Assembly (NCBI RefSeq): GCF_000331735.1 | Contig: NC_020126.1 | Location: 4,526,001-4,590,000 of the forward strand | Reading direction: 5' to 3' | Source: Myxococcus stipitatus DSM 14675 | GTDB taxonomy: Bacteria; Myxococcota; Myxococcia; Myxococcales; Myxococcaceae | Length of the DNA: 64,000 bases | In this document: positions 31,586-59,675 of the stretch, one piece after another | How positions within the stretch are numbered: the stretch's first letter is position 1 | Layout: each line of letters opens with the position of its first letter | Notes under the pieces: model-generated | What the model was told of the DNA's origin: nothing | Database searches by the model: none | What the model saw: only the letters and a program-made list of their open reading frames with translations | Program-made: the position numbers and the translations under genes

Positions 31586-31635
31586 CTCTGTACTCCAGGG
31601 GCTCCGGTGACCGGGGATTGCCCAGGGCGGAGGCG

Positions 31636-31675: not shown

Positions 31676-31694
31676 CGTGGCGAATCAGGGCCGG

Positions 31695-36071: not shown

Positions 36072-36091
36072 GCTCTTCTCCGAAATCCCGC

Positions 36092-37390: not shown

Positions 37391-37392
37391 CA
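37388..37392 (-). promoter_or_regulatory. TGATG stop-start overlap, PKS 2 to glycosyltransferase
   Basis: The TGA of PKS 2 (37392-37390) and ATG of the glycosyltransferase (37390-37388) share one base. A strong GGAGGAAGG lies inside the end of PKS 2. This indicates coupled translation. Confidence 0.85.
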
Positions 37393-40300
37393 GCTGCCTT
37401 CCTCCGCGTCCTCATCCTCCGCGCGCCGGCGCGAGCGCTGACGCTGGAGGTTCTGCTTGCGGCGCTGGACGGTGGACTCGCGCTCGTCCGCTTCGCCCTG
37501 CGCCGCGCCCGGGTTCGCGTCGGGCGGCTGAATCAGCGCCGCCAGCGCCTTCACGGTGACGCCTTCGTAGAGGCTGGACGCGGGCACGCTGAGGTTGAGC
37601 CGACGCTTGAGCTGGTCGGTGAGCTGAACCGCGACGAGCGAGTCGCCGCCCAGCTCGAAGAAGTTGTCCTGGATGCCGATGGGCGTCACGCCCAGCATCT
37701 GCTGCCAGAGGTCCGCGAGCAGCCGCTCCAGCTCCGTCGTGGGCGCCACATAGGCACTGCGAAGGTTCGACGGACGGGGGTGCAGCGGACGCGCCACGAC
37801 CTCCGCTTGCGCGGGCAACGGCTGCGGCGGTGCTTGTCGCGCCTTCACGTCATGCGTGGAGATGACCAGCCACGGCCCGGCCGCGTGCGCGAGCATGCGG
37901 TCCAGGACCTCCGCGCCTTGCTCGGGCGCGACGGCGAGTCGGTCGATGGCCTCGCCGCGTGCCCCCAGGTGCGCGCCGTAGTCCTCCACTCGCACCACGT
38001 CCCAGCCCACGCTCGTCCAGCGCCGGCCCGCTCGGGTCGCCGCTTGTGCGAAGGCGTCCTGCCAGGCGCTCGCGGCGGTGTGCGCGACGGTGGAGATGCC
38101 GCCCAGCACCGCGGAGATGGACGACGCCACCACGCGGAAGTCCAGGGGGCGATCCCCGAGCACGGTGTCGAGCAGCGCCAGGCCGCGGACGCGAGGGTCG
38201 AAGTGCCACGCCGTCTCGTCCGGCCCTGTCTCGGAGACGAGGCGGGCGACCTTCTGTCGCGGCAGCCACGCCGCATGCACCACGCCGTGGAGCGCGCCCC
38301 ATCGCGTGACAGTCGAGTCCACGGCCGCGCGAAGGGCCTCCTCGTTCGTGAGGTCGACGGAGACGACGTGGACCTCCGCGCCCATCGCCTCGAGCTCACG
38401 CGCGCGGCGGATGCGCTGGGCCTGGTCCTCGCCCGCGTCGGGCGTGGACACCGGTGCGTCCCAGGCGTCACGGGCGGGGAAGCCCACGGGCTCCAGGCAC
38501 ACGAGCTTCGCACCCGGGGACAGCTTCGCGAGCGCCCTCGCGTTCATGGCTCCGACACCTCCGAGGCCATGCACGAGCAGATAGACGCCGCCCGCGCGCG
38601 CGGTCGGATGCGGCGCGGGAGCTTCGGGCAGCGGCAGCGATTCCAGGACCGGGACCCAGCGGTGGGCTCCACGCAGCGCCACCACCGCCTCGCGAGGCGC
38701 GGCGCGCAGCTCGGTGCGGAGCGCCTGGAGGCTCGCGGGCGACAGTCGAACCCCGGCCTCCGTCACCACATCCACGTGGTGGAAGCGCAGGTGGGGGTGC
38801 TCCTGCGGGATGACGCGGCAGGGGCCGAGCACCGTCGCCTTGTCGGCGGAGAGGACCTCGTCACCGGTGACGTCGTGGACGTGGTTGGAGACCACGAAGA
38901 CGGTGCAGGGGCGCTCGGGAGTGAGCTCGACGAGGACGCGCGAGAGGGCCACGAGCGTGTGGTAGCCGCTGGCCTGGGTCTGCGCGAAGGACGCGGACGG
39001 CTCCGCGGTGAGGCTCCACAGATGCAGCACCGCGTCCGGGAGTCGGCCTGACTCGCGCAGCGTGGTCACCAGCTCGCGCAGGTCCGCCTGGGAGCCGGGC
39101 GCCATGGTGAAGTCCGTGTCGTTGTGGCGCTGGAACCCGGTTCCGGGCTTCACACGCACCACCCCCTGCTCAGCGCCGGGCTCGGGAGCCAGGAGCGAGT
39201 CGGCGGTCGACGCCGCATCCTCGAACACCAGCCACACGCGCGGACCCGGAGACTTGGAGGTGCTCGCGGGGGCGAGCGGCGCGCGCTTCCAGGAGGGCGC
39301 GTGGAACCAGTTCTCCAGCGGGGCCTGCGCTTCGGGCGCTGGGAGGCTCTCGGACGTAGCCGGGGCGACGGTGGCTCCACCGCGCGGGCTCTGCTCCTCG
39401 GGCTCCACCCAGAAGCGCTGCCGCTCGAAGGGGTAGGTCGGGAGCGGGAGGCGCTGGCGCCGCTCGTCGCCGTGGAAGCTCCGCCAGTCGATGTTGACGC
39501 CCGCGAGCCACAGGTTGCCCAGCGTCGTGTACGCGAGCGGCGGCGTGCCGTCGGCGACGGTGTCCTGGGGCATCGGCATGGAGCCGAGGACGGGGCGCGA
39601 AGGCGTGGACGCCGGATGACGCCGCGCCAGACGGCTGAGCACCTGACCCGGCCCCGCCTCCAACAGGACGCGCTTGGGGTCGGAGAGCAGGGCGTGCAAG
39701 CCATCCGCGAAGCGCACCGCGCCGCGCAGGTGCTGCGCCCAGTACCGAGGGCTCGTCGCCTGCTCGGTGGTGATCCACGTCCCCGTCACGTTGGAGATGA
39801 AGGGGAGGGTGGGGGGACGCAAGGGCATGGCCGCCGCTCGCGCCGTGAAGGCGTCGAGGATGGGGTCCATCATCGAGGAGTGGAACGCATGCGACGTGAC
39901 GAGCACGTGGCAACGCACACCCGACTCCTCGAGCTGCCGACGCAGTCGCTCGATCGCCTCCGTGGGCCCGGAGGCGACGCACTGCATGGGGGCGTTCACC
40001 GCCGCGAGGCTCAGCTCGGTGCCGAGCGAAGGCCGCAGCTCCTCCTCGCTGAGGGGCACCGCGAGCATGGAGCCCGCGGGGAGGGACTGCATCAGCCGGC
40101 CCCGCGCCGCCACGAGCTGAAGCGCGTGTTCCAGCGTGAAGACCCCCGCGAGGCAGGCGGCCACGTATTCGCCAATGCTGTGCCCCAGCATGGCGGCGGG
40201 CTTCACGCCCCACGACATCCAGAGGCACGCGGTCGCGTACTCGAGCGTGAAGAGCGCGGGCTGGGTGAGCTCCGTGCGCGCCAGCGCCTTCTCGTTCTCC

Positions 40301-42078
40301 GCGGCGTCACCCGACCTCGGGTACAGCACGTCGCGCAGATCCTTGCCGCCGAGGTGCGGCTTGAGCAGCTCCGCGCACCGGTCCACCTCCGCGCGGAACA
40401 CGGGCTCCGCGTCGTAGAGCGCGCGACCCATGCCCACGTGCTGCGAGCCCTGGCCAGGGAAGAGGAACGCCACGGGGCGCTCCACGCCGTCCTCCGTCGC
40501 GGTGTGCACGCGAGGGCTGTCCGGCTGGGAGAGCACCGCCACCGCGTCGCTCACGCCTCGCGCGAGGACGAAGCGGCGCTGGCCGAAGCGCTGACGTCCC
40601 ACCTGGAGCGTCCACGCCACGTCCGCGAGGGCCTTGTCGGAGGTGCCCTCGAGCGCCCTCGCCAGGCGGCCCGTGCTGGACTCCAGCGCGGACGACGTGC
40701 GCGCCGACAGCGGGAGGAGCTGCCACGCGCGCCGCGAAGGAGCGCTGTCGGCCGCGCGCGGCGGCTGCTCCAGGACGACGTGCGCGTTGGTGCCACCGAC
40801 GCCGAAGGAGCTGACGCCCGCGCGCCGGGGCAGCGCGCTCGTGGGCCAGGGCTTGAGCGTCGCGTTGACGTAGAAGGGGCTGCCGTCGAAGTCGATGGCC
40901 GGGTTGGGCCGCTCGTAGTGGAGGCTGGGCGGCAGCTCACCGTGCTTCAACGCGAGGGCCGTCTTGATGAGGCCGGTGATGCCCGCAGCCGCGTCCAGGT
41001 GACCGACGTTGCCCTTCACCGAGCCGAGCGCGCAGAAGCGCCTGCGCTGGGTGCTGGAGCGGAAGGCCCGCGTGAGCGCCTCCACCTCGATGGGGTCCCC
41101 CAGCGGCGTCGCGGTGCCGTGGGCCTCCACGTAGCCGATGGTGTCCGCATCCACGCCGGCCGCGGCGAGCGCCTCGGCGACGACCTGGGCCTGTCCCTCC
41201 ACGCCCGGCGCCGTGTAGCCCGCCTTGAGCGAGCCATCGTTGTTGATGGCCGAGCCCTTGATGACCGCGTGTACGGTGTCGCCGTCGCGCACGGCGGCCC
41301 GCAGCTTCTTGAGCACCACCACGCCCGCGCCGCTGCCGAACAGCGTGCCTCGGGCCTTCGCGTCGAACGGGCGGCAGCGCCCGTCCGGGGACGCCATGCC
41401 GCCCTCCACGTGGCGGTAGCCGTTGAGGAAGCTCACGTTGACGGACGCGCCACCCGCGAGCGCGATGTCACACTCCCCATTGAGCAGGCTCTGGCAGGCC
41501 TGGTGCACGGCGACCAGCGACGTCGAGCACGCGCTCTGCACGGCGTGACTCGCGCCGCGGAGGTTCAGCTTGTACGAGACGCGCGTGGCCAGGAAGTCCG
41601 TGCCGTTGCCGATGTTGACCTGCACGGGCTCCACGGAGCCCAGCACGCGAGGATTCCTCGCCAGGTTCATCAGCAAGTAGGTGTTGAGCGTGGCGCCGCC
41701 GTACACGGAGATGGCGCCGGAGTAGTCCCGAGGCGAATAGCCCGCGTGCTCCAGGGCCTCCCAGCAGATCTCCAGGAAGACCCGGTGCTGGGGGTCGGTC
41801 AGCTCCGCCTCGCGAGGGGGCATGTCGAAGAACGCGGCATCGAAGGACTCGGGCTCCGGGAACACCGCGGAGGCGCGCACGAAGTCGGGGTCCTCGACCT
41901 GCTCTTTCGACGCGCCCGCGGCGCGACACTCCTCGGGTGAGAGGAACCGGATGGATTCCACGCCGCCCCGGACGTTGCTCCAGAGCTCCGCCGTGTCCCG
42001 AGCACCCGGGAAACGCCCTGACATGCCGATGATGGCGAGGTCTGCGTCGTCGATGTCTGGAGTCTGCTTCTCGTCCAC
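37390..42078 (-). CDS. PKS 2: KS-AT-KR(inactive)-ACP
   Basis: Type I PKS module of 1562 aa. Start is GTG 42078 with AAGGAG eight bases upstream; a nearby ATG is out of frame. KS is intact (QSACSTSLVA). The AT has GHSIGEY and the malonyl-type SHAFHS motif. The KR keeps the GLGGVG cofactor loop but the catalytic Tyr position reads His (TVAHTAASAW, residue about 1333), so the beta-keto group is probably not reduced. The carrier has LGGDSL. The C-terminus is a charged tail (RRKQNLQRQRSRRR then acidic), like those of the neighbouring proteins and probably for docking. It lies 21 bases after PKS 1 and overlaps the glycosyltransferase by one base. Confidence 0.94.
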   Translation of the reverse strand: MDEKQTPDIDDADLAIIGMSGRFPGARDTAELWSNVRGGVESIRFLSPEECRAAGASKEQVEDPDFVRASAVFPEPESFDAAFFDMPPREAELTDPQHRVFLEICWEALEHAGYSPRDYSGAISVYGGATLNTYLLMNLARNPRVLGSVEPVQVNIGNGTDFLATRVSYKLNLRGASHAVQSACSTSLVAVHQACQSLLNGECDIALAGGASVNVSFLNGYRHVEGGMASPDGRCRPFDAKARGTLFGSGAGVVVLKKLRAAVRDGDTVHAVIKGSAINNDGSLKAGYTAPGVEGQAQVVAEALAAAGVDADTIGYVEAHGTATPLGDPIEVEALTRAFRSSTQRRRFCALGSVKGNVGHLDAAAGITGLIKTALALKHGELPPSLHYERPNPAIDFDGSPFYVNATLKPWPTSALPRRAGVSSFGVGGTNAHVVLEQPPRAADSAPSRRAWQLLPLSARTSSALESSTGRLARALEGTSDKALADVAWTLQVGRQRFGQRRFVLARGVSDAVAVLSQPDSPRVHTATEDGVERPVAFLFPGQGSQHVGMGRALYDAEPVFRAEVDRCAELLKPHLGGKDLRDVLYPRSGDAAENEKALARTELTQPALFTLEYATACLWMSWGVKPAAMLGHSIGEYVAACLAGVFTLEHALQLVAARGRLMQSLPAGSMLAVPLSEEELRPSLGTELSLAAVNAPMQCVASGPTEAIERLRRQLEESGVRCHVLVTSHAFHSSMMDPILDAFTARAAAMPLRPPTLPFISNVTGTWITTEQATSPRYWAQHLRGAVRFADGLHALLSDPKRVLLEAGPGQVLSRLARRHPASTPSRPVLGSMPMPQDTVADGTPPLAYTTLGNLWLAGVNIDWRSFHGDERRQRLPLPTYPFERQRFWVEPEEQSPRGGATVAPATSESLPAPEAQAPLENWFHAPSWKRAPLAPASTSKSPGPRVWLVFEDAASTADSLLAPEPGAEQGVVRVKPGTGFQRHNDTDFTMAPGSQADLRELVTTLRESGRLPDAVLHLWSLTAEPSASFAQTQASGYHTLVALSRVLVELTPERPCTVFVVSNHVHDVTGDEVLSADKATVLGPCRVIPQEHPHLRFHHVDVVTEAGVRLSPASLQALRTELRAAPREAVVALRGAHRWVPVLESLPLPEAPAPHPTARAGGVYLLVHGLGGVGAMNARALAKLSPGAKLVCLEPVGFPARDAWDAPVSTPDAGEDQAQRIRRARELEAMGAEVHVVSVDLTNEEALRAAVDSTVTRWGALHGVVHAAWLPRQKVARLVSETGPDETAWHFDPRVRGLALLDTVLGDRPLDFRVVASSISAVLGGISTVAHTAASAWQDAFAQAATRAGRRWTSVGWDVVRVEDYGAHLGARGEAIDRLAVAPEQGAEVLDRMLAHAAGPWLVISTHDVKARQAPPQPLPAQAEVVARPLHPRPSNLRSAYVAPTTELERLLADLWQQMLGVTPIGIQDNFFELGGDSLVAVQLTDQLKRRLNLSVPASSLYEGVTVKALAALIQPPDANPGAAQGEADERESTVQRRKQNLQRQRSRRRAEDEDAEEGS

Positions 42079-42099
42079 GTCATCTGCTCCTTCGGTGCA

Positions 42100-45000
42100 T
42101 CACTCGCGGCGACTCCGCCGCTCCCTGCGTTGCGCGCCTCGGTTCTGACTCGTCTCGAAGCCGGGGGGCTGGGCCGCGGTGGCCGGCCCTCCCAGCTTCT
42201 TCGCCAGCGTGGCGACGGTGGGGGCCTCGAAGACGGAGGTGAGGGGAATGTCGCGCCCCAGCTCCCGCTTCAGCCGACCCACGATCTTGAGCCACAGCAG
42301 CGAGTTCCCGCCGAGGTCGAAGAAGTTGTCGTGGATGCCCAGCTGCGCCAGTCCGAGCTGCTCCTGCCACACCTTCGCCAGCGCCAGCTCCACGTCATCC
42401 GTGGGCGCCACGTACTCGGTGCCGAGCTGAGGCCGCTCATGCACCGTGCCCGTGGGGGCTTCCGCGCTCGCACCTTCCTTCCGCACCCAGCGCGCCACCC
42501 GCGCGGGCAGGTCGCCGGTGGAGACCACCACCTGGCCACCCTGCGCGGACTCCACGACGCGGCGGAACGCCTCCACGGCCTCGGTCGAGGACATGGCGAA
42601 CGCGTCCAGGCTCGTCTTCGCGCCCGGCGTGCCTTCCTCCGCGACGGGCCAGCCATCCCAGTTGGTGCTCAGCCAGCGCGTCGTGCCCGCCTGGGTGCGC
42701 GAGGCCGCGAACGCATCGAGGAAGGCGTTGGCCGCGCCGTAGGCCCCAAGCCCCAGGCCCCCGAGCACGGCGGCGTTGGAGGACACCAGCAGCACGAAGT
42801 CCAGCGAGCGTCCGTCGAGTGCCCGCTCCAGCGCATAGGTGCCATGGACCTTCGCGCGGAAGTGGGGCGCGCAGGCCGCCGCGTCCAGGCCGGCGAGCAG
42901 CGCCACCGCGCCCTCACCCGCGAGGCCCGCGGCGTGGATGACACCGTGCACCGCTCCGAAGCGCGCTTCCGCCTCCGCGAGCACGCCGCGCAGCCGCGAC
43001 TCGTCCGCGACGTCCGCGCGCACCACGAGCACTTCCGCGCCCGCCGCTTCCAGCTCCCGCACCGCGCGCTGCTTGTGGCCTCCCGGGTCCACCTCCAACC
43101 CGGAGCGGCCCACGAGGACCAGCCGCGCTTGATGGCTCCGCGCGAGCTCACCCGCGAGCAGCAGCCCCACGCCGCCCAAGCCGCCGGTGATGAGGTACAC
43201 GCCGCGCGTCCGGAGGGGCTGCGCGGCCATGGCGTCCTGCTCGAGCCGCAGCGGCTCATGCGTCTGCACGAGGCGCTGGGCTCCCCGCAGGGCCACCACC
43301 GGCTCGGCGGAGTCGGAGAGCAGCTCTCGCGCCAGCGCGCTCACGGTGGACAGGCCCGTGCCACGGCCCAGGTCGACGTACCGGCACGCGACGCCGTCGT
43401 GCTCCTGGGGAATCACCTTGCACAGCGCGGGGACCGTGGCGAGCGCGGGCTGGACCTCGTCCGTGCTCTCCACCTCCAGCGCCATGCGCCCCACGACCGT
43501 CAGCTCGACGCGCTTGGGCAGTGACGCTTCCACCAGCGCACGCGTCAGCCGGAGCACGGAGTGGAAGCCGCGCTCCTGGGCGCTGTCGAAGTCGGTGGTG
43601 CTGGAGCCATCCAGGCTCCACAGGTGGACCACGCGCTCCACGTCGAGGCCCTTCGCCTTCAGGGCGTTGAGCAGGAAGAAGGTCTCCTCGGGGGCCGTCG
43701 GGTCCAGGCTGAAGTGGTGCTCACCCAGCTCCTGGAGATGGGTGCCCGGCGTGACGCGTACGACGCGCTGGCCCGCGCGCACCAGCTCGTTGACCAGCGC
43801 CTCGCCAGGTCCCGTCGAGTCCTGGAACACGACCCAGGTTCGCGCGGTGACGGCGCCCGCCTTGGGAGGTGACAGCGGGGCGCGCCGCCAGGAGGGGACG
43901 TAGAACCAGCTGGCCACGTCCGCGTTCTTTCGCGCGCTGCCACGCCGCGCGGCGGAGGGCGCCTCGGGAGCGAGCCAGTAGTCCTGTCCCTCGAAGGGAT
44001 AGGTGGGCAGGGGAACGCGCAGCCGTCGCGCGTCTCCACGCACCGCGGCCCAGTCCACGCTCACACCCGCGGCCCAGAGCTTTCCAAGGGTGCCCGCGAG
44101 CAGCTCCTCGTCGGCCACCGGGTCCTGCGGATGGCGGAGGGACGGAAGCACGGGCGGCGCGTTGGGGCCGGTGAGCTGCAGCCGCGCCAGCGTGCCGAGC
44201 GTGCGGCCCGGGCCGACCTCCAGATAGACGCGGTGAGGCTGCTCCGCGAGCGTGCGGATGCCATCGCCGAAGCGCACCGTGTGCCGCAGGTGCCGCGTCC
44301 AGTAGGCCGGGTCCACGGCCTCCTCGGGTGTCATCCACGTGCCGGTGACGTTGGACATCAGGGGCAGGGTGGGGACGTTGCGCTTCAGCGTCCCGATGAA
44401 CTCCTGGAAGCGCGCGAGAATCGGCGTCACCAGGTGCGAGTGCGCCGCCACGTCGATGGGGATGTGCCGGAACTCCACCTCGCGGCGAGCCAGCTCCGCG
44501 GCCAGCGCCTCGACGGCTTCGACCGTGCCGGCGACCACGCACTGCGAGGGGCCGTTCACCGCCGCGAGCGACAGGGAGTCGCCGAGCAGCGGCCGCACCT
44601 CCGCCTCGGGCATGGGCACGCTGAGCATGCCGCCACCGGGCAGCTCCTCGAAGAGCTTGCCGCGCAGCACCACCAGCGCCAGCGCATCCTCCAGCGAGAA
44701 GACGCCCGCGAGGCACGCCGCCGTGTACTCACCCAGGCTGTGGCCGATGACCGCCTCGGGCTTCAGGCCCCAGGACTCCCACAGGCGCGCCATCGCGTAC
44801 TCGACGGTGAACAGCGCGGGCAGGGCCAGCGAGGTCCGCTTGAGGCGCTGGCCCGCGTTCGCGGCGGAGTCCGCGTCCGGGTACATCAGGGGCTTCAGGT
44901 CGAAGCCCAGGCGAGGACGCAGCAGCGCACAGCACTGGTCCACCGCTTCGCGGAAGGCGGGCTCGGCGGCGTAGAGCCCTCGGCCCATGTCCGGATACTG

Positions 45001-46635
45001 CGCACCGCCGCCGGGGAACATGAAGACGGCGGACGGCGTCGAGGAGCTCGGCGCCAGCGTGAAGAGGCGCTGAGGGTCTCTCGACTCCAGCACGCGCACG
45101 GCATCGTCCCGGTCCTTGCAGACCACCACGCGTCGGAGGTCCAGCGCCTTGCGCCCCGATTGCAGCGTCCACGCCACGTCCGCGAGCGGCTGCTCCGGAT
45201 GCTCCTTCAGGTGCGAGAGCAGCGACGCGGTCAGCGCCTCCAGCGCCGTCGGAGTCCGCGCGGAGAGGACCAGGACCTGCCACGCGCGCGACGCATCACC
45301 CGGGGGGATGAACGGCGACTCCTCCAGGATGACGTGCGCGTTGGTGCCGCCGATGCCGAACGAGCTCACGCCCGCACGGCGCGGCGTCGCGCCCACCGGC
45401 CAGGGCGCCAGCGTCGCATTGACGTAGAAGGGGCTGTTCGCGAAGTCGATGCGCGGGTTGGGCGCCTCGTAGTTCAGGCTGGGAGGAAGCTCCGCGTGCT
45501 CCAGCGAGAGCGCCGTCTTCACCAGCCCCGTCACGCCCGCGGCGGCGTCCAGGTGGCCCACGTTGGTCTTCACCGAGCCGAGCCCGCAGAAGGCGCGCTT
45601 GTCGGTGCCGGCGCGGAACACGCCATCGAGTGCCTGCACCTCGACGGGGTCTCCCAGCGGCGTGGCCGTGCCATGGGCTTCCACGTAGGAGATGGAGTCC
45701 GGCGTCACGTCCGCCATGGCCTGGGCCCGGGCGATGACCTCCATCTGGCCTTCCACACCGGGCGCCGTGAAGCCGACCTTCACCGCGCCGTCGTTGTTGA
45801 TGGCCGAGCCGCGGATGACGGCGTGGATGGTGTCGCCGTCCTTGAGCGCGTCGTCCAGGCGCTTGAGCACCACGACCCCCGCGCCGCTGCCGAAGAGCGT
45901 GCCCTGGCCCTTCGCATCGAACGCGCGGCAGTGGCCGTCCGGCGAGGTGATGCCGCCTTCCTGGTACGTGTAGCCCGTGCGCTGGGGCACGTGCACGGAC
46001 ACGCCGCCCGCGAGCGCGACGTCACACTGGTAGCCGAGCAGGGACTGGCAGGCCAGGTGCGTGGCGACCAGCGACGTGGAGCAGCCCGTCTGGACCGTGA
46101 GGGCGGGGCCCTTGAAGTCCAGGTGGTAGGCCACGCGCGTGGCGAGGAAGTCCTTGTCGTTGGCCACCATGGCCGGGAAGGTGTCCTCGGCCTGCTGGAA
46201 CTCCGCGCGCGAGAGCAGGTTGAAGAGCAGGTAGCTGCTGAGGCTGGAGCCCGCGAAGATGCCCGTGGTGCCCGGCACCTTCCCGGGGGCGTAGCCCGCA
46301 TGCTCCAGCGCCGTCCACGCGCACTCCAGGAAGACGCGGTGCTGCGGGTCCAGCAGCTCGGCCTCGCGCGGGGCGTAGCCGAAGAAGGCCGCGTCGAAGC
46401 GGCCTGGCCGCTCCAGGACGGGAGCGGCACGCACGAAGCTGGGATTGGCCAGGAACGCCGGGTCCACGCCGAGGGACTTCAGCGCCTCGTCGGAGAAGAA
46501 GGTGATGCCCTCCACGCCCGCGCGCAGCATGCGCCAGAACGCCGCCACGTCCCGTGCCCCAGGTACACGCACCGCCATGCCCACGATGGCCACAGCCAGT
46601 CCTGAGTCCCCCTGGTACTCCACATGACTCCCCAT
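42100..46635 (-). CDS. PKS 1: KS-AT-KR-ACP
   Basis: Type I PKS module of 1511 aa starting at ATG 46635, seven bases after the starter NRPS. KS active-site Cys sits in QTGCSTSLVA, with intact HGTATPLGDP and KTNVGHLDAA. The AT has GHSLGEY, and the second motif reads AAHSHLV, closest to malonyl-type enzymes. The KR is intact (GGLGGVG; SSNAAVLGGLGLGAYGAANAF). There is no DH or ER. The carrier has LGGNSLL. Predicted reaction: two-carbon extension of the acyl-glycyl thioester and reduction to the beta-hydroxy product, giving a 4-amino-3-hydroxybutyrate-like unit. The C-terminus is a basic tail (RRERRSRRE). Confidence 0.94.
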   Translation of the reverse strand: MGSHVEYQGDSGLAVAIVGMAVRVPGARDVAAFWRMLRAGVEGITFFSDEALKSLGVDPAFLANPSFVRAAPVLERPGRFDAAFFGYAPREAELLDPQHRVFLECAWTALEHAGYAPGKVPGTTGIFAGSSLSSYLLFNLLSRAEFQQAEDTFPAMVANDKDFLATRVAYHLDFKGPALTVQTGCSTSLVATHLACQSLLGYQCDVALAGGVSVHVPQRTGYTYQEGGITSPDGHCRAFDAKGQGTLFGSGAGVVVLKRLDDALKDGDTIHAVIRGSAINNDGAVKVGFTAPGVEGQMEVIARAQAMADVTPDSISYVEAHGTATPLGDPVEVQALDGVFRAGTDKRAFCGLGSVKTNVGHLDAAAGVTGLVKTALSLEHAELPPSLNYEAPNPRIDFANSPFYVNATLAPWPVGATPRRAGVSSFGIGGTNAHVILEESPFIPPGDASRAWQVLVLSARTPTALEALTASLLSHLKEHPEQPLADVAWTLQSGRKALDLRRVVVCKDRDDAVRVLESRDPQRLFTLAPSSSTPSAVFMFPGGGAQYPDMGRGLYAAEPAFREAVDQCCALLRPRLGFDLKPLMYPDADSAANAGQRLKRTSLALPALFTVEYAMARLWESWGLKPEAVIGHSLGEYTAACLAGVFSLEDALALVVLRGKLFEELPGGGMLSVPMPEAEVRPLLGDSLSLAAVNGPSQCVVAGTVEAVEALAAELARREVEFRHIPIDVAAHSHLVTPILARFQEFIGTLKRNVPTLPLMSNVTGTWMTPEEAVDPAYWTRHLRHTVRFGDGIRTLAEQPHRVYLEVGPGRTLGTLARLQLTGPNAPPVLPSLRHPQDPVADEELLAGTLGKLWAAGVSVDWAAVRGDARRLRVPLPTYPFEGQDYWLAPEAPSAARRGSARKNADVASWFYVPSWRRAPLSPPKAGAVTARTWVVFQDSTGPGEALVNELVRAGQRVVRVTPGTHLQELGEHHFSLDPTAPEETFFLLNALKAKGLDVERVVHLWSLDGSSTTDFDSAQERGFHSVLRLTRALVEASLPKRVELTVVGRMALEVESTDEVQPALATVPALCKVIPQEHDGVACRYVDLGRGTGLSTVSALARELLSDSAEPVVALRGAQRLVQTHEPLRLEQDAMAAQPLRTRGVYLITGGLGGVGLLLAGELARSHQARLVLVGRSGLEVDPGGHKQRAVRELEAAGAEVLVVRADVADESRLRGVLAEAEARFGAVHGVIHAAGLAGEGAVALLAGLDAAACAPHFRAKVHGTYALERALDGRSLDFVLLVSSNAAVLGGLGLGAYGAANAFLDAFAASRTQAGTTRWLSTNWDGWPVAEEGTPGAKTSLDAFAMSSTEAVEAFRRVVESAQGGQVVVSTGDLPARVARWVRKEGASAEAPTGTVHERPQLGTEYVAPTDDVELALAKVWQEQLGLAQLGIHDNFFDLGGNSLLWLKIVGRLKRELGRDIPLTSVFEAPTVATLAKKLGGPATAAQPPGFETSQNRGAQRRERRSRRE

Positions 46636-46642
46636 GACAGAC

Positions 46643-49600
46643 CTACCCCTGTTTCCTGGCGCGCTGTTGCTGCCGCTTCATGCTCTCGAGCTGGCGCTTC
46701 GCCCGGTCCTGAGCAGACTCGACCGGGGTGACATTCGATGCGGGACCCTGCCGCAGGTAGCGCGCGAGGGCGCTGACCGTCGGGTGCTCCAGCAGCTTGA
46801 GCAAGGGCAGCTCCGAGCCCAGCACCGCCTTGAGCCGCGCATGCACCTGCACCATGAGCAGCGAGTGCCCACCCAGGTCGAAGAAGTTGTCGTCCACGCC
46901 GACCTGCTCGACGTTGAGCACCTGCTTCCACACGTCGGAGATCTGCAGCTCGAGCTGGCTCTGCGGCGCCACGTAGGCCGCGCGCGAGGCGCGGGCCGCG
47001 GTGGGGGCGGGGAGGGCCTTGCGGTCCACCTTGCCATTGGGCGTGAGCGGCAGCGCCGGCAGCGTCACCAGCAGCGAGGGGACCATGTGCTCCGGCAGCC
47101 GCAGCGCCACCGCGTCTCGCAGCGCCGTCGCGTCCACCGTCTGCCCGTCGCGCGCCACCACGTAGGCCACCAGCCGCACGTCGCCCGGCGAGTCCTCGCG
47201 GGCCACCACCACCGCCTCGCGCACCTCCGGCCTCGCGCTCAGCACCGCTTCGATTTCACCGGCCTCGATGCGGAAGCCCCGCACCTTGAGCTGGTGGTCC
47301 ACGCGGCCCAGGAACTCCACCGTGCCGTCGTCGCGCCAGCGCGCCCGGTCTCCCGTGCGGTACACGCGCGCGCCCGGCTCTCGCGAGAACGGGTCCGGCA
47401 CGAAGCGCTCCGCGGTCAGCTCCGGCCGCGAGAGGTAGCCCCGCACCACGCCCGCTCCACCGATGAAGAGCTCGCCCGGGACTCCCACCGGCACCGGCCG
47501 CAGCTTCGCGTCGAGCAGGTAGAACTGCGTGCGGGAGAACGGCGAGCCGATGGACGCCACCGGGCTGCTCTCGTCACGCACGTCGTGCGTCGAGGACCAG
47601 ATGGTCGTCTCCGTGGGGCCGTACATGTTGAGCAGCCGGGCCCCTTCGCCCAGGGCCTGACGCAGCGTCGTCCCCAGCGACGACGGGAGCGCCTCGCCGC
47701 CGACCATGAGGCGGCGCAGGCCGGACAGCGCCTCCACGGACTCGGGCTCCGCCATGAGCGCGCGCGCCAGCGACGGCGTGCACTGCAGATGCGTCACGGC
47801 GTGCTCGCGCAGGTTGAGCGGGATGGAGCGCGCGGTGCTCGCGCGGCGGCCATCGCGGTCCGCCTGGCACTTCACCTCGTGCAGGCGGGGCAGGCTGGCC
47901 AGCACCGTCTCCGCGGGGATGCCGAAGTCGATGAGGCAGCCGACCTCGTCCACGCCCAGCGCGCGGAGTTGCTCCATCCGCTCGCGCACGGAGCGCGGCG
48001 TGCCGAACAGGCCGCTCGTCTCGAAGTAGCGCTCGAAGGCCTGCGCGGCGAGGCGGTCCAGGTCTGCCTCCGTCGCGGTGTCCAGGTCCACGCCCAGCGT
48101 CCGCCCCAGGCCGCGCATCAGGTCGGCGGAGCTGCGCAGGTAGTCGCGGAAGGGCTTCTCCACCACCGCGCGCACCTGCGCGGCGTCCTCGCCGATGAAC
48201 GTGTGGAGCATCAGCGTGACGTGTCCGTCACCCGCGTGACCGGCCGCGCGCCAGGCGTCGCGATAGAGCGCGAGCTTCTTCTCCAGGTCTTCCCACGTCT
48301 GGCCGAGCAGGTGCGTGAGGACATGGCAGCCCATGCGCCCCGCGGTGATGAACGTGTCGGGATTGCCCGCCGCCGTGAGCCACACCGGCAGGTCCTTCTG
48401 GAGGGGACGGGGCCGCAGCGTGACGTCCACCTGCGCGCCCGCGCCGCCCTGCATCCGCAGCGTCTCTCCGCGCCAGAGCCGGCGCACCGTCTCCAGCCCC
48501 TCCATCATCAGCTCGCGGCGCTTCTCGTAGCGCTCGGGTGCGAAGACGAAGTCATTCGCGTGCCAGCCGGAGGCCACGGAGATGCCCACGCGGCCCTTCG
48601 ACAGGTTGTCCACCAACGCCCATTCCTCGGCGACGCGCACCGGGTGGTGCAGCGGCAACACGACGCTGCCCGCGCGGATGGCCACGCGCTCCGTCACGGC
48701 GGCGATGGCCGCGCTCGCGACGGCGGGGCTGGGGTACAGCCCACCGAAGGCGTGGAAGTGACGCTCCGGCGTCCACACCGCCGCGAAGCCATGGCGGTCG
48801 GCGAACTTCGCACCCTCCATCAGCAGGCGGTAGTGGTCCCCCGTCGACTTCTCCGCGTCGTCCGCGAAGTAGAAGAGGCTGAGCTCCATCGGCTTGCGCC
48901 GCGCCGCCGCGACGCGGGACGGAGCCTTGAGCAGCGCGCCTTCTCCCTGCACCACGACCTTGAAGCCGCGCGTGAGCGTCCACAGCAGCTCCAGCACGGA
49001 GATGTCGAAGGAGATGCTGGTGACGGCCAGCCATGAGCCCACGGGCTGATGGCCCAGGCGCGCATCCATCGCGGTGAAGAAGTTGGCCACGCCCCCGTGC
49101 GGCACCATGACGCCCTTGGGACGTCCCGTGGAGCCGGAGGTGTAGATGACGTACGCGAGGCTCGCCGTGCTCGTGCCCGACGCGGGCGGCACGTCCCGCG
49201 CCTCGCGAGCATCCACGGAGGCATCGTCCAGCAGCACGACGCGCGCGCGCCCGGGAGGAATGGAGCCCTGCAGATGCGTCTCGGTGAGCAGCACCGCGGC
49301 GCCCGAGTCCTCCAGCATGAAGGCGAGCCGCTCGCGGGGATAGTCCGGGTCCAGGGGCACGTACGCGCCGCCCGCCTTGAGCACGCCCAGCATGGCGACC
49401 ATCATGGCCGCCGAGCGCTCCAGGCACAGGCCCACGCGCACCTCGGGGCCGACCCCCGCGTCCCTCAGCCGCCAGGCCAGCGCGTTCGCGCGACCCTCCA
49501 GCTCCGCGTACGTGAGCGTCGCGTCGTCACCCGCCACCGCCACCGCGTCGGGCGTGCGAGCCGCCTGCGCGCGGAACTGCGCATGGATGCACAGCGCCGC

Positions 49601-52600
49601 GTCGTCGGCCTGCGCGGGGGTGAGGTCGTTCCAGTCCACCAGCAACCGGCGCGTCTCCTCCGCGCCCAGCAGCGGCAGGTCGTCCACCTTCAGCTCCACG
49701 GCGTCCACCGCCGCGCGCAGCACCGTCTCCAGGTGGGTGGCGAGCCGCGCCACCGTCGCGGGAGCGAAGAGGTCCGTGCGGTACTCGAGTGCCCCGGACA
49801 GTCCGTCCGCCGTCTCGACGAGGGAGAGCTGGAGGTCGAACTTCGACGTGCCCTCCACCGCGCCGTCCGGCACGGGGAGCACCGGGCGCCACTCCATGCC
49901 CGGCACCGTCAGGTCCGTGGGCGGGAGCGCCTCGAGCAGCAGGGCCGTCTGGAAGAGCGGGTTGTCCGCGCCGCCACGGGGCACCCGCGCGGAGGCCACC
50001 ACGTCCTCGAACGGGAGGTCCGCGTGGGCCAGGGCCTCGTGGAACGTCCGCCGCGTGCGGGTGAGCAGCTCACGGAAGCTCGGCTGGCCCGCGAGGTCCG
50101 CGCGCAGCGCGAGCGTGTGCGCGAAGAAGCCCAGCACGTCGCGCAGCTCCGGCCGCTCGCGGTTCGCCACCACCGTGCCCACGGCGAAGTCTTCCTGGCC
50201 GCTGTAGCGGTGGAGCAGCGCCGTCCACGCCGCCGTCAGCGTGATGAAGAGCGTGCAGCCCTCGCGGCGGCCCAAGGCGCGCAGCGACTCCACCAGCGAG
50301 CGGTCCAGCGTCAGGCGGTGCAGCGCGCCCTGGACTCGCGGCTCACGCGGCCGCGTGAAGTCCGTGGGCAGCTCCAGTCGAGGCAACCCCGCGAGCTGCT
50401 TCGCCCAGTACGCACGCTGCCCATCGAGCAGCGGGCCCAGGCCCTGCTGCCAGCGCGAGTAGTCCGCGTAGTGGAGGCGGGGAGGGGGGAGGTTCGCGGT
50501 GCCGCCAGCGACCTGCGCGCGGTACAGCGCGGCGAGCTCGCGGCCCAGCACGCCCACGGACCAGCCGTCGGTCACGATGTGGTGCTGCGTCATCAGCAGC
50601 CGGTGGTCGTTCTCGCCCAGCCGCACCAGCGACGCGCGCACGGTGGGGCCCTCCATCAGGCGGAAGGGCTCGCGCGCCTGCTCCAGCGCCAGCCGCCGCA
50701 GCGCCGCGTCCCGCGCTTCGGGCTTCTCCGAGCGCAGGTCCACCTGCGGCAAGGGCAGCGACGTGGGCGCGCGGACGACGAGGCGCGGCTGGCCCTCCAC
50801 CTCGGGGAAGGACGCGCACAGCAGCGGGTGGCGCGTGAGCAGCGCATCCAGGCCGCGGCGCAGGGCCTCCACATCCAGCGGCCCGCCGAGGTGGAGCTGG
50901 AAGTGGACGTTGTACAGCGCGCTGTCCGGCACCAGCCGGTCCAGGAACCACAGCCGCAGCTGGCCCGACGACAGGGGCAGCTCACCGTCGCGGGGGCCCG
51001 CCGTCAGCGGGGGCGCCGCGAGCGAGAAGTCCGGCCGCACGCCCTGCCACGCCTCCAGGAGCTTGTCGGCCGCGGCCTCCAGCGTCTGGCTCATCCAGAG
51101 GAAGGCGGCGGGGAGCGCCACGCCCAGCTCCGACTCGAGCATGCCGTGGAGCTCCAGCACCATCAGCGAGTCCAGGCCCAGGCTCGCCAGCGACGAGTCT
51201 CCCTGGAGCTTGCGGACATCCACGCGCAGCGTCCGCGCCACGGCGTGCTTGAGGAACTCCTCCACGTGCGTGCGGCGCTCCGTCTCGGACGCCGTGACGA
51301 GCAGCTCCTTCAGCGGGAGCGTCGGAGCCACGGGCGCCGCGACGGGCTCGGTCTCCGCCACCGACAGCTCGACGACCTCCAGCTCGCCGGCTAGGTACGC
51401 GGCCTTGGTGGCCCGGCGCTGGATCTTCCCGCTCGACGTCTTGGGGATGCTGCGCGCCTGGAGCAGCACGATGCCATGCGCGTGTACGGTGTGCTGCTCC
51501 GCGAGCCGCTGCCGCACGGCCGCCACCACCGCGGACGCGTCGAACCCGTCGCGCACGTCCACTTCCAGGGCGATGACGAGCCGCTCCTCGCCCTCCACGT
51601 CCACGCTGAAGGCCGCGCTGCAGCCCGCGCGCACCGCGCGGTGCGCCCGCTCCGCGTCCATCTCCAGATCCTGCGGATACAGGTTGCGGCCCCGGATGAT
51701 GAGCAGGTCCTTCAAGCGGCCGGTGACGAAGAGCTCGCCCGAGGCCGAGAGGAACGCCAGGTCGCCCGTGCGCAGGAAGGGCCCCTCGCCCGAGGACAGC
51801 TTCGCGTCGAACGCGTGAGCCGTCTCTTCCGGACGCGCCCAGTAGCCCTGCGCCACGCTGGGGCCGGAGACCCAGATCTCTCCCACGGAGTTCGCCGGGA
51901 GCACCTCGCGCGACTCGGGGTGGACGATGAGCACGCGCTGATCCGGCGCGCTGATGCCCGCGCCCACCAGCGTGCGAGTCCCAGGCGCGTCCGCGTCCGC
52001 TTCCTGGGCCCGGCCCTGCTCCATCGCGTCCGACACGAACTGGCCATGGACGTAGGGCTGGCCCTTCGTTCCACCCGTGACGATGAGCGTCGTCTCCGCC
52101 AGGCCGTAGCACGGGTAGAAGGCCGTGCGCCGGAAGCCGCAGGGGGCGAAGGTCTCCGCGAAGCGCTCCAGCGTCTCGCGCCGCACCGGCTCCGCGCCGT
52201 TGAAGGCCAGGTCCCAGCTGTGCAGCTTCAGCTTCGCGCGGTCCTCCTCGGTCGCCTTCCTCACGCACAAGTCGTACGCGAAGTTGGGACCTCCGCTGCA
52301 CGTGGCCTGGTAGTGGGAGATGGCCTCCAGCCAGCGCAGCGGACGCTGCAGGAAGGAGATGGGCGACATCAGCGTGCAGGGGAAGCCCAGGTAGAGCGGC
52401 TGGAGCACCTTCCCGATGAGGCCCATGTCATGGAACATGGGCAGCCAGCCCATGCCCGACGAGCGCGACGCATCCAGCCCGAAGCCTCGGGTGATGAACG
52501 CCTCGTTGTGGAGGATGTTGGCGTGGCTCACCATCACGCCCTTGGGGTTGCCCGTGGAGCCGGAGGTGTACTGGAGGAACGCCAGCGTGTTCCCCTCCAG

Positions 52601-53110
52601 CTCCGGACGGCGCCAGTCCGCCGCCAGGTCCTCCGGCACCGAGTCGCTCGCCAGCCACTCGAGCTCCGCGAGCTCCGGCGCCTGCGGCTTGAACAGCTCC
52701 GACATGTCCACGATGAACTGCGTGGTGAGCACGTAGCGCGCGCCGCAGTCCTGCGCGATGGCGCGAAGGCGGGGCAGGGTGCGCTCCAGCCGCGTCGGGT
52801 CCGGCGGATAGCACGGCACCGCGATGACGCCGCCGTACAGGCACCCCATGAAGCCCGCGACGAACTCCATCCCGGGCGGATACAGCAACAGCGCACGCTC
52901 ACCCGTCGCACCCGAAGCCCGCAGCCGCGCGCCCAACGCCCGCGCCCGCGCGTCCAGCTTCGCGTAGCTCCACTCTTCCACCGGGCCGTCCACGTCGCCC
53001 GACTCCAGGAAGCGGTAGAGCAACGCGTCTCCGCGCACCTGCGCGCGATAGCTCAGCAGGTCGACGAGGTTGTGGAAGTCTCCCACGGACTTTTCGTTGC
53101 GCTGATTCAT
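46643..53110 (-). CDS. Starter protein: FAAL-ACP-C-A(Gly, monooxygenase)-PCP
   Basis: 2155-aa protein starting at ATG 53110 with GGGGAG seven bases upstream. A fatty acyl-AMP ligase (about 53100-51360; YTSGSTGNPKG and LPMFHDMGLIG motifs) activates a fatty acid and loads the ACP (LGLDSLM, about 51160). The C domain (about 50990-49680, HHIVTDG) joins it to the amino acid. The A domain is split: the first half ends after [12 protein letters not shown], then a luciferase-like monooxygenase is inserted (about 48900-47840), and the second half resumes before HLQCTPS. The code DILQMGMIWK indicates glycine. The last domain is a PCP (LGGHSLL). The tail ends in KRQQQRARKQG, probably a docking segment for PKS 1. 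It opens the operon and sets a lipid start. Confidence 0.95.
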   Translation of the reverse strand: MNQRNEKSVGDFHNLVDLLSYRAQVRGDALLYRFLESGDVDGPVEEWSYAKLDARARALGARLRASGATGERALLLYPPGMEFVAGFMGCLYGGVIAVPCYPPDPTRLERTLPRLRAIAQDCGARYVLTTQFIVDMSELFKPQAPELAELEWLASDSVPEDLAADWRRPELEGNTLAFLQYTSGSTGNPKGVMVSHANILHNEAFITRGFGLDASRSSGMGWLPMFHDMGLIGKVLQPLYLGFPCTLMSPISFLQRPLRWLEAISHYQATCSGGPNFAYDLCVRKATEEDRAKLKLHSWDLAFNGAEPVRRETLERFAETFAPCGFRRTAFYPCYGLAETTLIVTGGTKGQPYVHGQFVSDAMEQGRAQEADADAPGTRTLVGAGISAPDQRVLIVHPESREVLPANSVGEIWVSGPSVAQGYWARPEETAHAFDAKLSSGEGPFLRTGDLAFLSASGELFVTGRLKDLLIIRGRNLYPQDLEMDAERAHRAVRAGCSAAFSVDVEGEERLVIALEVDVRDGFDASAVVAAVRQRLAEQHTVHAHGIVLLQARSIPKTSSGKIQRRATKAAYLAGELEVVELSVAETEPVAAPVAPTLPLKELLVTASETERRTHVEEFLKHAVARTLRVDVRKLQGDSSLASLGLDSLMVLELHGMLESELGVALPAAFLWMSQTLEAAADKLLEAWQGVRPDFSLAAPPLTAGPRDGELPLSSGQLRLWFLDRLVPDSALYNVHFQLHLGGPLDVEALRRGLDALLTRHPLLCASFPEVEGQPRLVVRAPTSLPLPQVDLRSEKPEARDAALRRLALEQAREPFRLMEGPTVRASLVRLGENDHRLLMTQHHIVTDGWSVGVLGRELAALYRAQVAGGTANLPPPRLHYADYSRWQQGLGPLLDGQRAYWAKQLAGLPRLELPTDFTRPREPRVQGALHRLTLDRSLVESLRALGRREGCTLFITLTAAWTALLHRYSGQEDFAVGTVVANRERPELRDVLGFFAHTLALRADLAGQPSFRELLTRTRRTFHEALAHADLPFEDVVASARVPRGGADNPLFQTALLLEALPPTDLTVPGMEWRPVLPVPDGAVEGTSKFDLQLSLVETADGLSGALEYRTDLFAPATVARLATHLETVLRAAVDAVELKVDDLPLLGAEETRRLLVDWNDLTPAQADDAALCIHAQFRAQAARTPDAVAVAGDDATLTYAELEGRANALAWRLRDAGVGPEVRVGLCLERSAAMMVAMLGVLKAGGAYVPLDPDYPRERLAFMLEDSGAAVLLTETHLQGSIPPGRARVVLLDDASVDAREARDVPPASGTSTASLAYVIYTSGSTGRPKGVMVPHGGVANFFTAMDARLGHQPVGSWLAVTSISFDISVLELLWTLTRGFKVVVQGEGALLKAPSRVAAARRKPMELSLFYFADDAEKSTGDHYRLLMEGAKFADRHGFAAVWTPERHFHAFGGLYPSPAVASAAIAAVTERVAIRAGSVVLPLHHPVRVAEEWALVDNLSKGRVGISVASGWHANDFVFAPERYEKRRELMMEGLETVRRLWRGETLRMQGGAGAQVDVTLRPRPLQKDLPVWLTAAGNPDTFITAGRMGCHVLTHLLGQTWEDLEKKLALYRDAWRAAGHAGDGHVTLMLHTFIGEDAAQVRAVVEKPFRDYLRSSADLMRGLGRTLGVDLDTATEADLDRLAAQAFERYFETSGLFGTPRSVRERMEQLRALGVDEVGCLIDFGIPAETVLASLPRLHEVKCQADRDGRRASTARSIPLNLREHAVTHLQCTPSLARALMAEPESVEALSGLRRLMVGGEALPSSLGTTLRQALGEGARLLNMYGPTETTIWSSTHDVRDESSPVASIGSPFSRTQFYLLDAKLRPVPVGVPGELFIGGAGVVRGYLSRPELTAERFVPDPFSREPGARVYRTGDRARWRDDGTVEFLGRVDHQLKVRGFRIEAGEIEAVLSARPEVREAVVVAREDSPGDVRLVAYVVARDGQTVDATALRDAVALRLPEHMVPSLLVTLPALPLTPNGKVDRKALPAPTAARASRAAYVAPQSQLELQISDVWKQVLNVEQVGVDDNFFDLGGHSLLMVQVHARLKAVLGSELPLLKLLEHPTVSALARYLRQGPASNVTPVESAQDRAKRQLESMKRQQQRARKQG
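47840..48900 (-). other. Luciferase-like monooxygenase inserted in glycine A domain
   Basis: Begins near MELSLFYFADD and ends shortly before the resumption of A-domain sequence. Internal motifs such as FAAVWTPERHFH, LPLHHPVRVAEEWA and SVASGWHANDF match the flavin-dependent natural-product luciferase-like family. In the myxothiazol and melithiazol pathways, domains of this kind inserted in a glycine A domain are thought to hydroxylate the alpha carbon of the bound glycine. Confidence 0.9.
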
Positions 53111-53487
53111 ACGTACTCCCCGGCGGACGGCTCGAGATGATGGTGCCGTGTGCTCAGGGAGTTGTTTTCTCCCCAAGCGACTTCACGAAAGAAATGCCTG
53201 TGAAGTCCTCGTTCCCCTGGCAGCGCGAGACTCCGGCAAACCACCTCATCGAGAGGTTGGCCGAGCATCTCTCCCTCGTCTGACGCGAGTGGCCCGCTGC
53301 CGCACGAAGTCACGTCGCTGTATTCCAGAGCCGCGAACAAAGAAAATAAGGTCGAAGTTGCGGCATGCCCTATAGCTTCATCTCTTGTTTTATCGTGATT
53401 GTCCAGTGAGCCCAAAATTGGAGCAAGCCCGTGGTTTTCACGCCTCCGGGGCTTCACTGAAATGAAGTGAAACGCTCGCGAGACCCC
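53111..53487. promoter_or_regulatory. Divergent intergenic region, operon and P450
   Basis: 377 bp between the starter NRPS and the P450, with an AT-rich core (about 53335-53425) unlike the rest of the window. It must hold the promoter for the 53-kb operon and probably the one for the P450. I see no convincing -35/-10 pair. A minus-strand ORF spanning it (53107-53514) shows no recognisable protein. Confidence 0.55.
53453..53471. promoter_or_regulatory. Dyad TTCACT-N7-AGTGAA before the P450
   Basis: Perfect six-base arms with a seven-base spacer, 17 bases before the chosen P450 start. It could be an operator or a small RNA hairpin. No regulator gene is in the window. Confidence 0.35.
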
Positions 53488-54838: not shown

Positions 54839-54863
54839 GCGCGCCGCTCAGCTCGCGGCGCGC
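54839..54863. terminator. Hairpin between convergent P450 and dioxygenase genes
   Basis: Arms GCGCGCCGC (54839-54847) and GCGGCGCGC (54855-54863) with a seven-base loop, beginning just after the P450 stop and overlapping the end of the dioxygenase gene. It is very stable but has no T-run on either side, so its role as a shared terminator is uncertain. Confidence 0.45.
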
Positions 54864-55921
54864 ACGGCCTCCTGCTCCTTGGCCGCGTAGAGCGCCTGGA
54901 TGTTGGCGCCACCGAAGCCGCGAGCCTGGTGGCGCTGGATGACCTCGAAGAAGAGCGTGCGCCGGGCGTGCTGCGAGCGGGTGAAGACCTGCAGCAGCGC
55001 GCCCCACGCGTCGCGGTCCATCAGGATGTTGCGCGCCTGCAGCGGCTCGCGCTCGAAGGGGCTCAGCGTGCCCAGCCGCGCCTCCAGGCTCTCGTAGTAG
55101 CCCTGGGGCGCGTCCAGCAGGCTCACCCCGTGCTGACGGAGGGCGTCCACCGCGCGGGCGATGTCGTTCGACAGGAAGGCGATGTGCTGCACGCCCGCGC
55201 CGCCATGGGCGCCGAGAAAGTCCTCCAACTGTCCGCGCCGCGTGCCGCTGACCGGCTCCTGCAGCGGGAAGCAGACGCGGCCCCCGACGGACTGCACCAC
55301 GCGCGAGCTCATCCCGCTGTACTCGGTGCGCACGTCCTCGCGGTGGGTCTGCTCGAAGCCGAGGACCGACTCGTAGAAGCCGACGGTGTCCATCAGCGTG
55401 TGCGGGCGCAGCGCGAAGGCGAAGTGGTCCACCGCGGTGAAGAGGGACGCGCCACCTGACGGGCCCGCCTCCACCGGCAGGTAGACGCCCGGCAGGACGT
55501 CGGACGAGGAGGCGTCGCGCTGGATGAACGAGTGCACCCAGTCCCCGGGCCCCGCGATGGTGGCCTTCACCACGCGCTGGCCGTGGGACTCGTACGTGAC
55601 GGGCTCCGCCACGGGCCTGGCGCCCCGGCGCACCGCCTCGGTGAAGGCCGCGTGCGCGTCCGGAGTCCCCAGCGCGATGTCTCGCACGCCGTCTCCATGC
55701 GTGCGGACGAAAGCCGCGACCTCGCTGTCCGCGTCCAGGGCCGAGGTGACGACGAGCCTCGCGGCGCCCTGCTCGAGCACGAAGGAGCGCCGGCCCGGCA
55801 ACCCTGTCTCCGGCCCGCCGCTGGCCACCATCCGGAAGCCCAGCGCATGGCAGAAGAAATAGGAGGAGAGGACCGCGTCACCCACGAACAGCTCGGCATG
55901 CTCCACTCTCGAGAACTCCAT
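54848..55921 (-). CDS. 4-Hydroxyphenylpyruvate dioxygenase family, hydroxymandelate synthase-like
   Basis: 357-aa Fe(II) enzyme acting on 4-hydroxyphenylpyruvate. ATG 55921 has GAGG eight bases upstream and is preferred over TTG 55927. The iron ligands are His166 (VDHFAF), His246 (GVQHIAF) and Glu326 (FFEVIQ). Two features favour hydroxymandelate synthase over homogentisate-forming enzymes: Ile341 in GGANIQALY, where dioxygenases have Phe (the Phe-to-Ile change is reported to switch product), and the VVQS motif at 208-211. The length equals that of known hydroxymandelate synthases. That product is the first step to 4-hydroxyphenylglycine, but no hydroxymandelate oxidase or aminotransferase is seen here. 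Position between P450 and exporter suggests it serves the lipopeptide. Confidence 0.88.
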   Translation of the reverse strand: MEFSRVEHAELFVGDAVLSSYFFCHALGFRMVASGGPETGLPGRRSFVLEQGAARLVVTSALDADSEVAAFVRTHGDGVRDIALGTPDAHAAFTEAVRRGARPVAEPVTYESHGQRVVKATIAGPGDWVHSFIQRDASSSDVLPGVYLPVEAGPSGGASLFTAVDHFAFALRPHTLMDTVGFYESVLGFEQTHREDVRTEYSGMSSRVVQSVGGRVCFPLQEPVSGTRRGQLEDFLGAHGGAGVQHIAFLSNDIARAVDALRQHGVSLLDAPQGYYESLEARLGTLSPFEREPLQARNILMDRDAWGALLQVFTRSQHARRTLFFEVIQRHQARGFGGANIQALYAAKEQEAVRAAS

Positions 55922-59625: not shown

Positions 59626-59675
59626 TGACTCTCTCTATGCGAAATCCCGCGCCCCATTGCATGGGAACGAGGACG

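Follow-up and report, generated by a model that had tools for sequence, protein, structure and literature searches.

A hydroxymandelate synthase-like gene of Myxococcus stipitatus as candidate for a dispersed supply of hydroxyphenylglycine

In Amycolatopsis, HmaS makes 4-hydroxymandelate, Hmo oxidises it and an aminotransferase yields hydroxyphenylglycine (Hpg) (PMC11376024, PMC4048454). A gene table for vancomycin places hmaS and hmo next to each other and hpgT four genes away (PMC4048454). Hpg genes also occur outside the actinobacteria: in Herpetosiphon aurantiacus, the pathway is described as adjacent to polyketide synthase (PKS) and nonribosomal peptide synthetase (NRPS) genes, and the title of an enzyme paper cited there names gene duplication and catalytic divergence (PMC3368417). 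Searches of the literature, mainly of openly accessible papers, showed among the papers listed no report on Hpg biosynthesis in myxobacteria. In myxobacterial genomes we found comparable blocks in Corallococcus (L055, L071), ordered HMS-HpgT-Hmo with the aminotransferase gene between the hydroxymandelate synthase-like gene (HMS) and an FMN oxidase gene, and in Hyalangium (L059), ordered HpgT-HMS-oxidase.

The genome studied here has homologues of the same genes in another arrangement. Its HMS is 53% and 48% identical to those of the Corallococcus and Hyalangium blocks, its HpgT 73% identical to that of L071 and its oxidase 70% identical to that of Hyalangium; the genes are clustered in those two genera and dispersed in Myxococcus and Pyxidicoccus genomes with HMS of the type described below. 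With the vancomycin-type set it shares the three enzyme families, the key Ile of the solved structure 2r5v and the proposed order of steps. In vancomycin-type clusters the genes lie close together, whereas here the three are ~1.2 Mb apart, and none was seen clustered with an Hpg-like adenylation (A) domain.

The HMS gene and its relatives

The window, the whole stretch of 64,000 nucleotides that we analysed, corresponds to C1:4526001-4590000 in a one-contig genome of 10,350,586 bases. The original prediction of an HMS-like gene at 54848-55921 was borne out, with the minus strand as the coding strand: the plus-strand frame is broken by a stop, and on the minus strand translation from the ATG at 55921 to the stop at 54850-54848 gives a protein of 357 aa. 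Pfam assigns it glyoxalase/dioxygenase domains and the N-terminal domain of 4-hydroxyphenylpyruvate dioxygenase (HPPD). It passes the NCBIfam model TIGR01263 4HPPD (331.3 bits, cut-off 277), a call that does not settle whether it is an HPPD or an HmaS. HPPD shares family, iron triad and substrate with HmaS and differs in its product. Among solved structures, the best match is 2r5v (236.6 bits; named PCZA361.1), which we take to be HmaS of A. orientalis, followed by 3zgj (234.6 bits) and the HPPD 1t47 (225.3 bits), so that the total score barely separates HmaS from HPPD.

H166, H246 and E326 align with the iron ligands of 2r5v and are invariant across 11 aligned sequences, the window's included. 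Residue 341 is Ile, as is the aligned residue in 2r5v and 3zgj; 1t47 has Phe there, as does a second HPPD-like gene of the same genome. An Ile in place of the HPPD Phe near the C terminus is, on our assumption, an HmaS trait; a literature search on the role of this residue gave nothing useful. HMS thus has the 2-His-1-Glu iron site and the Ile of HmaS and lacks the Phe341 of HPPD. Its FPLQEP has the Pro but not the Asn of FPINEP, the HPPD motif. The original prediction had deduced hydroxymandelate as product from Ile341 and VVQS; both are present as described (VVQS at 208-211), and the argument holds for Ile341 only, as close orthologues read VVAS, VVQA, VVQT or VMQT and VVQS was rejected as a diagnostic motif. 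The predicted product itself is supported by Ile341, the iron triad, the linkage of the family to Hmo and HpgT in relatives, and strong co-occurrence with an Hpg-like A code.

The linkage was assessed in 80 named loci, some of them cut by contig ends. Position 341 is Ile or Val in 56, and Hmo and/or HpgT lie within ~10 kb in 42 of these (both in 27, neither in 14), compared with none of the seven loci with Phe; a further 17, four of them with both genes, were not classified at this position by the script. Among distant named hosts, actinomycetes included, HpgT homologues at 46-61% identity lie no more than 10 kb from HMS. Six Myxococcus/Pyxidicoccus loci of the window type (L152-L157) have neither gene within ~10 kb. 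Linkage is therefore usual; this lineage departs from it, and is not alone in doing so.

The neighbouring NRPS and its separation from HMS

HMS lies between a cytochrome P450 gene (53467..54837, plus strand) and a gene for a cyclic-peptide-export ABC transporter (TIGR01194; 56069..57775, minus strand). The transporter gene, looked for in all these loci but that of G057, adjoins HMS in the window, L040-L047 and L051 and is not beside it in L074 or in four loci with a solitary HMS. The P450 gene adjoins HMS in the window and its eight close relatives L040-L047, and is not beside it in L051, L074 and the solitary loci; as a replacement oxidase it was set aside once an unlinked FMN oxidase turned up. 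At 58879-62191, ketopantoate-reductase-like and styrene-monooxygenase-like genes are neighbours of HMS in most loci of the window type, solitary ones included, and are not tied to the NRPS.

To the left, on the minus strand, an NRPS start (46643..53176) encodes a FAAL-like AMP-binding domain, a carrier protein, a C domain, a Gly-like A domain with a luciferase-like monooxygenase insert, and a PCP. It is followed by a PKS/NRPS line (1..46635, minus strand) that runs beyond the left edge of the window and includes three PKS modules (42100-46635, 37390-42078 and 31695-36095) and a glycosyltransferase (36092-37390), all on the minus strand. We judged both parts to be context outside the pathway. 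The acyltransferase of the module at 31695-36095 matches Pfam over only ~100 residues (33.1 bits) and is possibly degenerate.

Including the continuation past the left edge (L038), the line has 13 A domains for amino acids, 11 of which could be read by eye. Their codes are Gly-like (with the monooxygenase insert), DVFHMSLVE, Gly-like, Val-like, Ser-like, Pro-like, DAATIAAVC, DPPQVGCVD, DAATIAAVC, DLESIGSVV and Pro-like, where the substrate names follow known codes. All 11 keep Asp235. The absence of an Hpg code, noted in the original prediction, holds for these 11 of 13 domains, and a search for one in the window or beyond its edge ended with their reading; the suggestion that module 10 and beyond may use Hpg found no support, as the modules past the edge carry DAATIAAVC, DLESIGSVV and a Pro-like DVQ code. 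The two unreadable domains are frame-broken, and the relative G072 has Val-type modules there in one unbroken frame. Hydroxymandelate as a direct building block, also raised in the original prediction, is disfavoured because the readable domains retain Asp235; the four genomes in which HMS has no NRPS beside it, and the two HMS-free genomes that have a relative of the NRPS start, also speak against it.

Two irregularities of the line were seen. Reading-frame breaks at 16900-18400 and inside the ORF 18017-31669 fall in near-identical tandem Val-type modules; G072 has four such modules in an unbroken frame and another relative, G061, is broken too, and the breaks may be either errors in repeats or real damage. 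Compared with G072 (L232-L234), the codes DVFHMSLVE and Ser-like DVW..SLVD (A domains at 29602 and 12345) have exchanged positions, the pattern that a swap of A domains between modules would leave.

Besides our genome, 15 others of the genus have an HMS orthologue of the window type (69-95% identity), and the frame is open in all 16. A FAAL-NRPS of the window type adjoins HMS in 12. In the other four (G064, G069, G068 and G054), HMS stands at the same site without the NRPS or the transporter, flanked by gene families that also bracket the window's cluster on both sides. When 500 residues of the NRPS start were used as query, G064 gave a relative at 64% away from HMS; in G069, G068 and G054, matches covering most of the query did not exceed 51%, and partial ones reached at most 59%. 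A relative at 66% is present in two of the three HMS-free genomes searched (G060 and G063, not G055). The solitary copies show dN/dS of 0.19-0.33 in five pairs, values that indicate evolution under constraint. In the HMS gene tree, solitary and NRPS-adjacent copies fall into one window clade of 15 rows with support 100/100; the tree took 18 of the 80 named loci, dropped L192 as too short and left out HMS of G019, G021, G023, G026, G027, G035 and G057. The program marked one join, that of L060 with L062, as long-branch, and some rows, including L177, L209 and L076, as very long.

Candidate partner genes and A domains elsewhere on the chromosome

Pfam and NCBIfam searches of the window ORFs, some small ones excepted, detected neither Hmo nor HpgT, and every match of genome-wide searches for the two lay outside the window. 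The expectation that partner oxidase and aminotransferase genes are lacking thus held within the window and failed on the chromosome as a whole: the genome search proposed with it brought up an HpgT-like gene and an FMN oxidase gene that is a strong Hmo candidate, both of them unlinked to HMS.

The HpgT-like aminotransferase is encoded at C1:5787835-5789037, 1.21 Mb from HMS, and is 73% identical to the Corallococcus gene between HMS and Hmo mentioned above (L071). Within the genus (27 genomes), HpgT is confined to the 16 that have HMS of the window type and is present in all of them. Across 96 genomes of the family, matches at E<=1e-95 are present in 25 of 36 genomes with HMS and in none of 60 without. 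The 11 HMS genomes without such a match are G003, G016, G019, G022, G027, G031, G032, G034, G035, G042 and G075; in some, another aminotransferase of the group lies near HMS (for example, L052, L059 and L072), and in the rest none was identified. Around HpgT (L083-L084, ~C1:5788000-5798000) are homologues of a CmlA-type diiron beta-hydroxylase, APS kinase, CysN, CysD, a thioesterase and a PPTase, a gene content that suggests beta-hydroxylated, perhaps sulfated Hpg peptides.

The FMN-dependent oxidase (C1:3387543-3389042), 1.19 Mb from HMS, is the only full-length FMN_dh protein of the genome (PF01070, 470 bits) and has the catalytic His motif SNHGGRQ. Among solved relatives it is not closest to Hmo (231 bits): lactate oxidase 7f22 (736-residue chain) scores 396 bits, glycolate oxidase 304 and S-mandelate dehydrogenase 278. 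This ranking still counts against the name Hmo, and we consider the protein a strong candidate whose likeness to Hmo lies in its context, not in its sequence rank. With the HMS-linked Corallococcus oxidase, too, another oxidase (355 bits) ranks above Hmo (340 bits), by a narrower margin, so the ranking discriminates weakly. A housekeeping glycolate or lactate oxidase was dropped as a reading because orthologues (62-100% identity) are confined to HMS genomes, 22 of 36 against none of 60 HMS-free ones; G081 and G082, both HMS-free, have FMN oxidases at 41-44% identity. The remaining 14 HMS genomes have a different full or near-full FMN oxidase, the linked-type Hmo, within ~1.5 kb of HMS in 13 and on another contig in G027; G021 has both types. 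In Hyalangium (G042, L059), a homologue of our oxidase (70% over 373 aa) directly adjoins HMS, with the aminotransferase gene on the other side. The oxidase gene lies 2-9 kb from A domains of the DAL?LGCLF type in G069, G073 and G068; no Hpg-like code was seen in the NRPS beside it in our genome or in the two A domains read near it in G079.

To find possible users of Hpg, we read A domains, located by their A3 motif, in regions covering all 112 Condensation-domain matches of the genome (E<=1e-20). Among the codes read (several were not), three are DALHLGCLF: one at C1:1.707 Mb and two at C1:5.605 and 5.615 Mb, in NRPSs 2.87 and 1.02 Mb from HMS. HpgT lies 183 kb from one of these domains. DALHLGCLF shares H278, L299, G301 and L330 with known Hpg codes and differs at 239, 322 and 331; it presumably equals no Hpg code already described, DAYHLGLLC agreeing at six of nine positions. 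The six papers in which the string DALHLG occurs are unrelated by title. A very long NRPS reading frame (15781 aa) was also seen at C1:2608001-2664000 (L099-L101).

A profile built from the three DALHLGCLF cores was run on the 96 family genomes, our own included; in our genome it returned no domains other than these three at E<=1e-45. At that threshold it matched 40 genomes; at E<=1e-60, a cut chosen after the gap was seen, it matched 33 of 36 HMS genomes and none of 60 HMS-free ones. The association repeats inside several genera (HMS versus HMS-free genomes: g1, 16/17 versus 0/10; g3, 4/4 versus 0/2; g6, 10/10 versus 0/6; g7, 1/3 versus 0/1; g8, 1/1 versus 0/6; g20, 1/1). Since the family genomes are related and the co-occurrence counts are not phylogenetically independent, we give no p-value. 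Weaker matches (9.0e-46 to 1.7e-52) occur in seven HMS-free genomes, and G032, G034 and G075 are the HMS genomes without a match. In the first look, only the best candidates were scored in each genome, at most 47 for A domains, 16 for the oxidase and 19 for HpgT; wider A-domain scoring (up to 150 candidates) in 11 genomes raised no best match above the cut. All 16 genomes with HMS of the window type have HpgT, the oxidase and the Hpg-like A domain.

Decisive codes were re-read by pattern or by eye, as automatic scripts mis-set or omitted some positions. Of the 33 matched genomes, 29 were read at one locus each, and all 29 gave DALHLGCLF; G042 reads DAL?LGCLF ~18 kb from HMS, and G019, G022 and G035 stand outside the 29. 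The controls were 11 genomes, eight of them HMS-free and three that have HMS without a strong match. They gave 36 weaker matches; the 30 whose codes were read, 29 from HMS-free genomes, include no DALHLGCLF. Of these 30 codes, 25 were read by pattern and are mostly Val/Ile-like with Trp or Tyr for His, two having His, and five, read by eye, have Met; the two with His (L266 and L268) are DGLHHGAVV and DGLHHGGIV, which are not Hpg-like.

Several genomes depart from the common pattern. G069 has at least 43 profile matches at E<=1e-45, counted among the 47 best of 326 candidates; 24 of the matches listed reach E<=3.7e-63, and of these the one in L125 is DALHLGCLF and two in L237 are the same but for one unresolved position. 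Besides their solitary HMS, G069, G064 and G054 have another with HpgT and CmlA as neighbours, which shares 52-54% identity with that of the window (L057, L063 and L067). G075 has a diverged HMS (L062, 45% identical) with its own linked Hmo and neither a DALHLGCLF A domain (best, DALWLGGTF) nor such an HpgT; this HMS perhaps serves another product.

A proposed Hpg supply and its alternatives

From the genes, residues, positions and co-occurrences described above, we infer both the enzymatic steps and the A-domain specificity of the following route. HMS would convert 4-hydroxyphenylpyruvate, from tyrosine or prephenate, to 4-hydroxymandelate; the FMN oxidase would oxidise this to 4-hydroxyphenylglyoxylate; and the HpgT-type aminotransferase would form Hpg, to be loaded by the three DALHLGCLF A domains and not by the NRPS beside HMS. 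We regard it as very probable that HMS, the unlinked oxidase and the unlinked HpgT constitute such a dispersed supply for NRPSs elsewhere. It would be a variant of the known Hpg pathway, familiar in its chemistry and new in the dispersal of its genes.

The position of HMS between an NRPS and a peptide-export transporter invites the reading that it serves the adjoining FAAL-NRPS-PKS line, with hydroxymandelate or a derived acid as starter for the FAAL-like domain or as a tailoring unit. Adjacency to this NRPS type in 12 of 16 genomes agrees with that, and the specificity of the FAAL domain is not readable from sequence here. Against it, four genomes keep HMS at the common site with no NRPS beside it; one of them, G064, has a relative of the NRPS start (64%) elsewhere, and in the remaining three no match over most of the 500-residue piece exceeds 51%. 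Such a relative, at 66%, is present in two HMS-free genomes out of three searched, and the line shows no Hpg-like code, with Asp235 kept in the 11 readable domains. We consider this reading improbable, and the neighbouring NRPS is probably not a customer of HMS.

It is still less likely that HMS is a second 4-hydroxyphenylpyruvate dioxygenase whose product, homogentisate, goes into tyrosine breakdown or a pigment. The 4HPPD model, the close scores of 1t47 and 2r5v (225 and 237 bits) and the Pro retained in FPLQEP, if not the Asn of FPINEP, would fit it, but Ile341 is that of 2r5v, the genome holds another HPPD-like gene with Phe, Hmo or HpgT is near none of seven F-type loci against 42 of 56 I/V-type loci, and HMS tracks the Hpg-like A domain across genomes. 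That HMS is a functionless relic of a lost Hpg cluster, as its solitary state in four genomes and its unlinked partners might suggest, is barely credible given an open frame in 16 of 16 genomes, the low dN/dS of the solitary copies, and the presence of HpgT, oxidase and Hpg-like A domain in every one of these genomes.

The proposed dispersed supply by HMS, oxidase and HpgT bears on how such clusters are read. Genome mining usually seeks building-block genes within the cluster that uses them; with Hpg supply split over three distant loci, reading cluster by cluster would assign HMS wrongly to its neighbour and miss the likely users. If the proposed route is correct, loss of any one of the three genes should abolish all Hpg-containing peptides at once. 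For myxobacteria, DALHLGCLF is a candidate Hpg code of A domains that can be put to the test, and it suggests that Myxococcus, Pyxidicoccus, Archangium and Corallococcus make peptides with Hpg. For Myxococcus and Pyxidicoccus, we lean, with some reserve, towards a broader picture in which Hpg supply would be a chromosome-wide utility: single unlinked genes, with HMS fixed at one site even where it is solitary, may serve many NRPSs, and DALHLGCLF may be the myxobacterial Hpg code.
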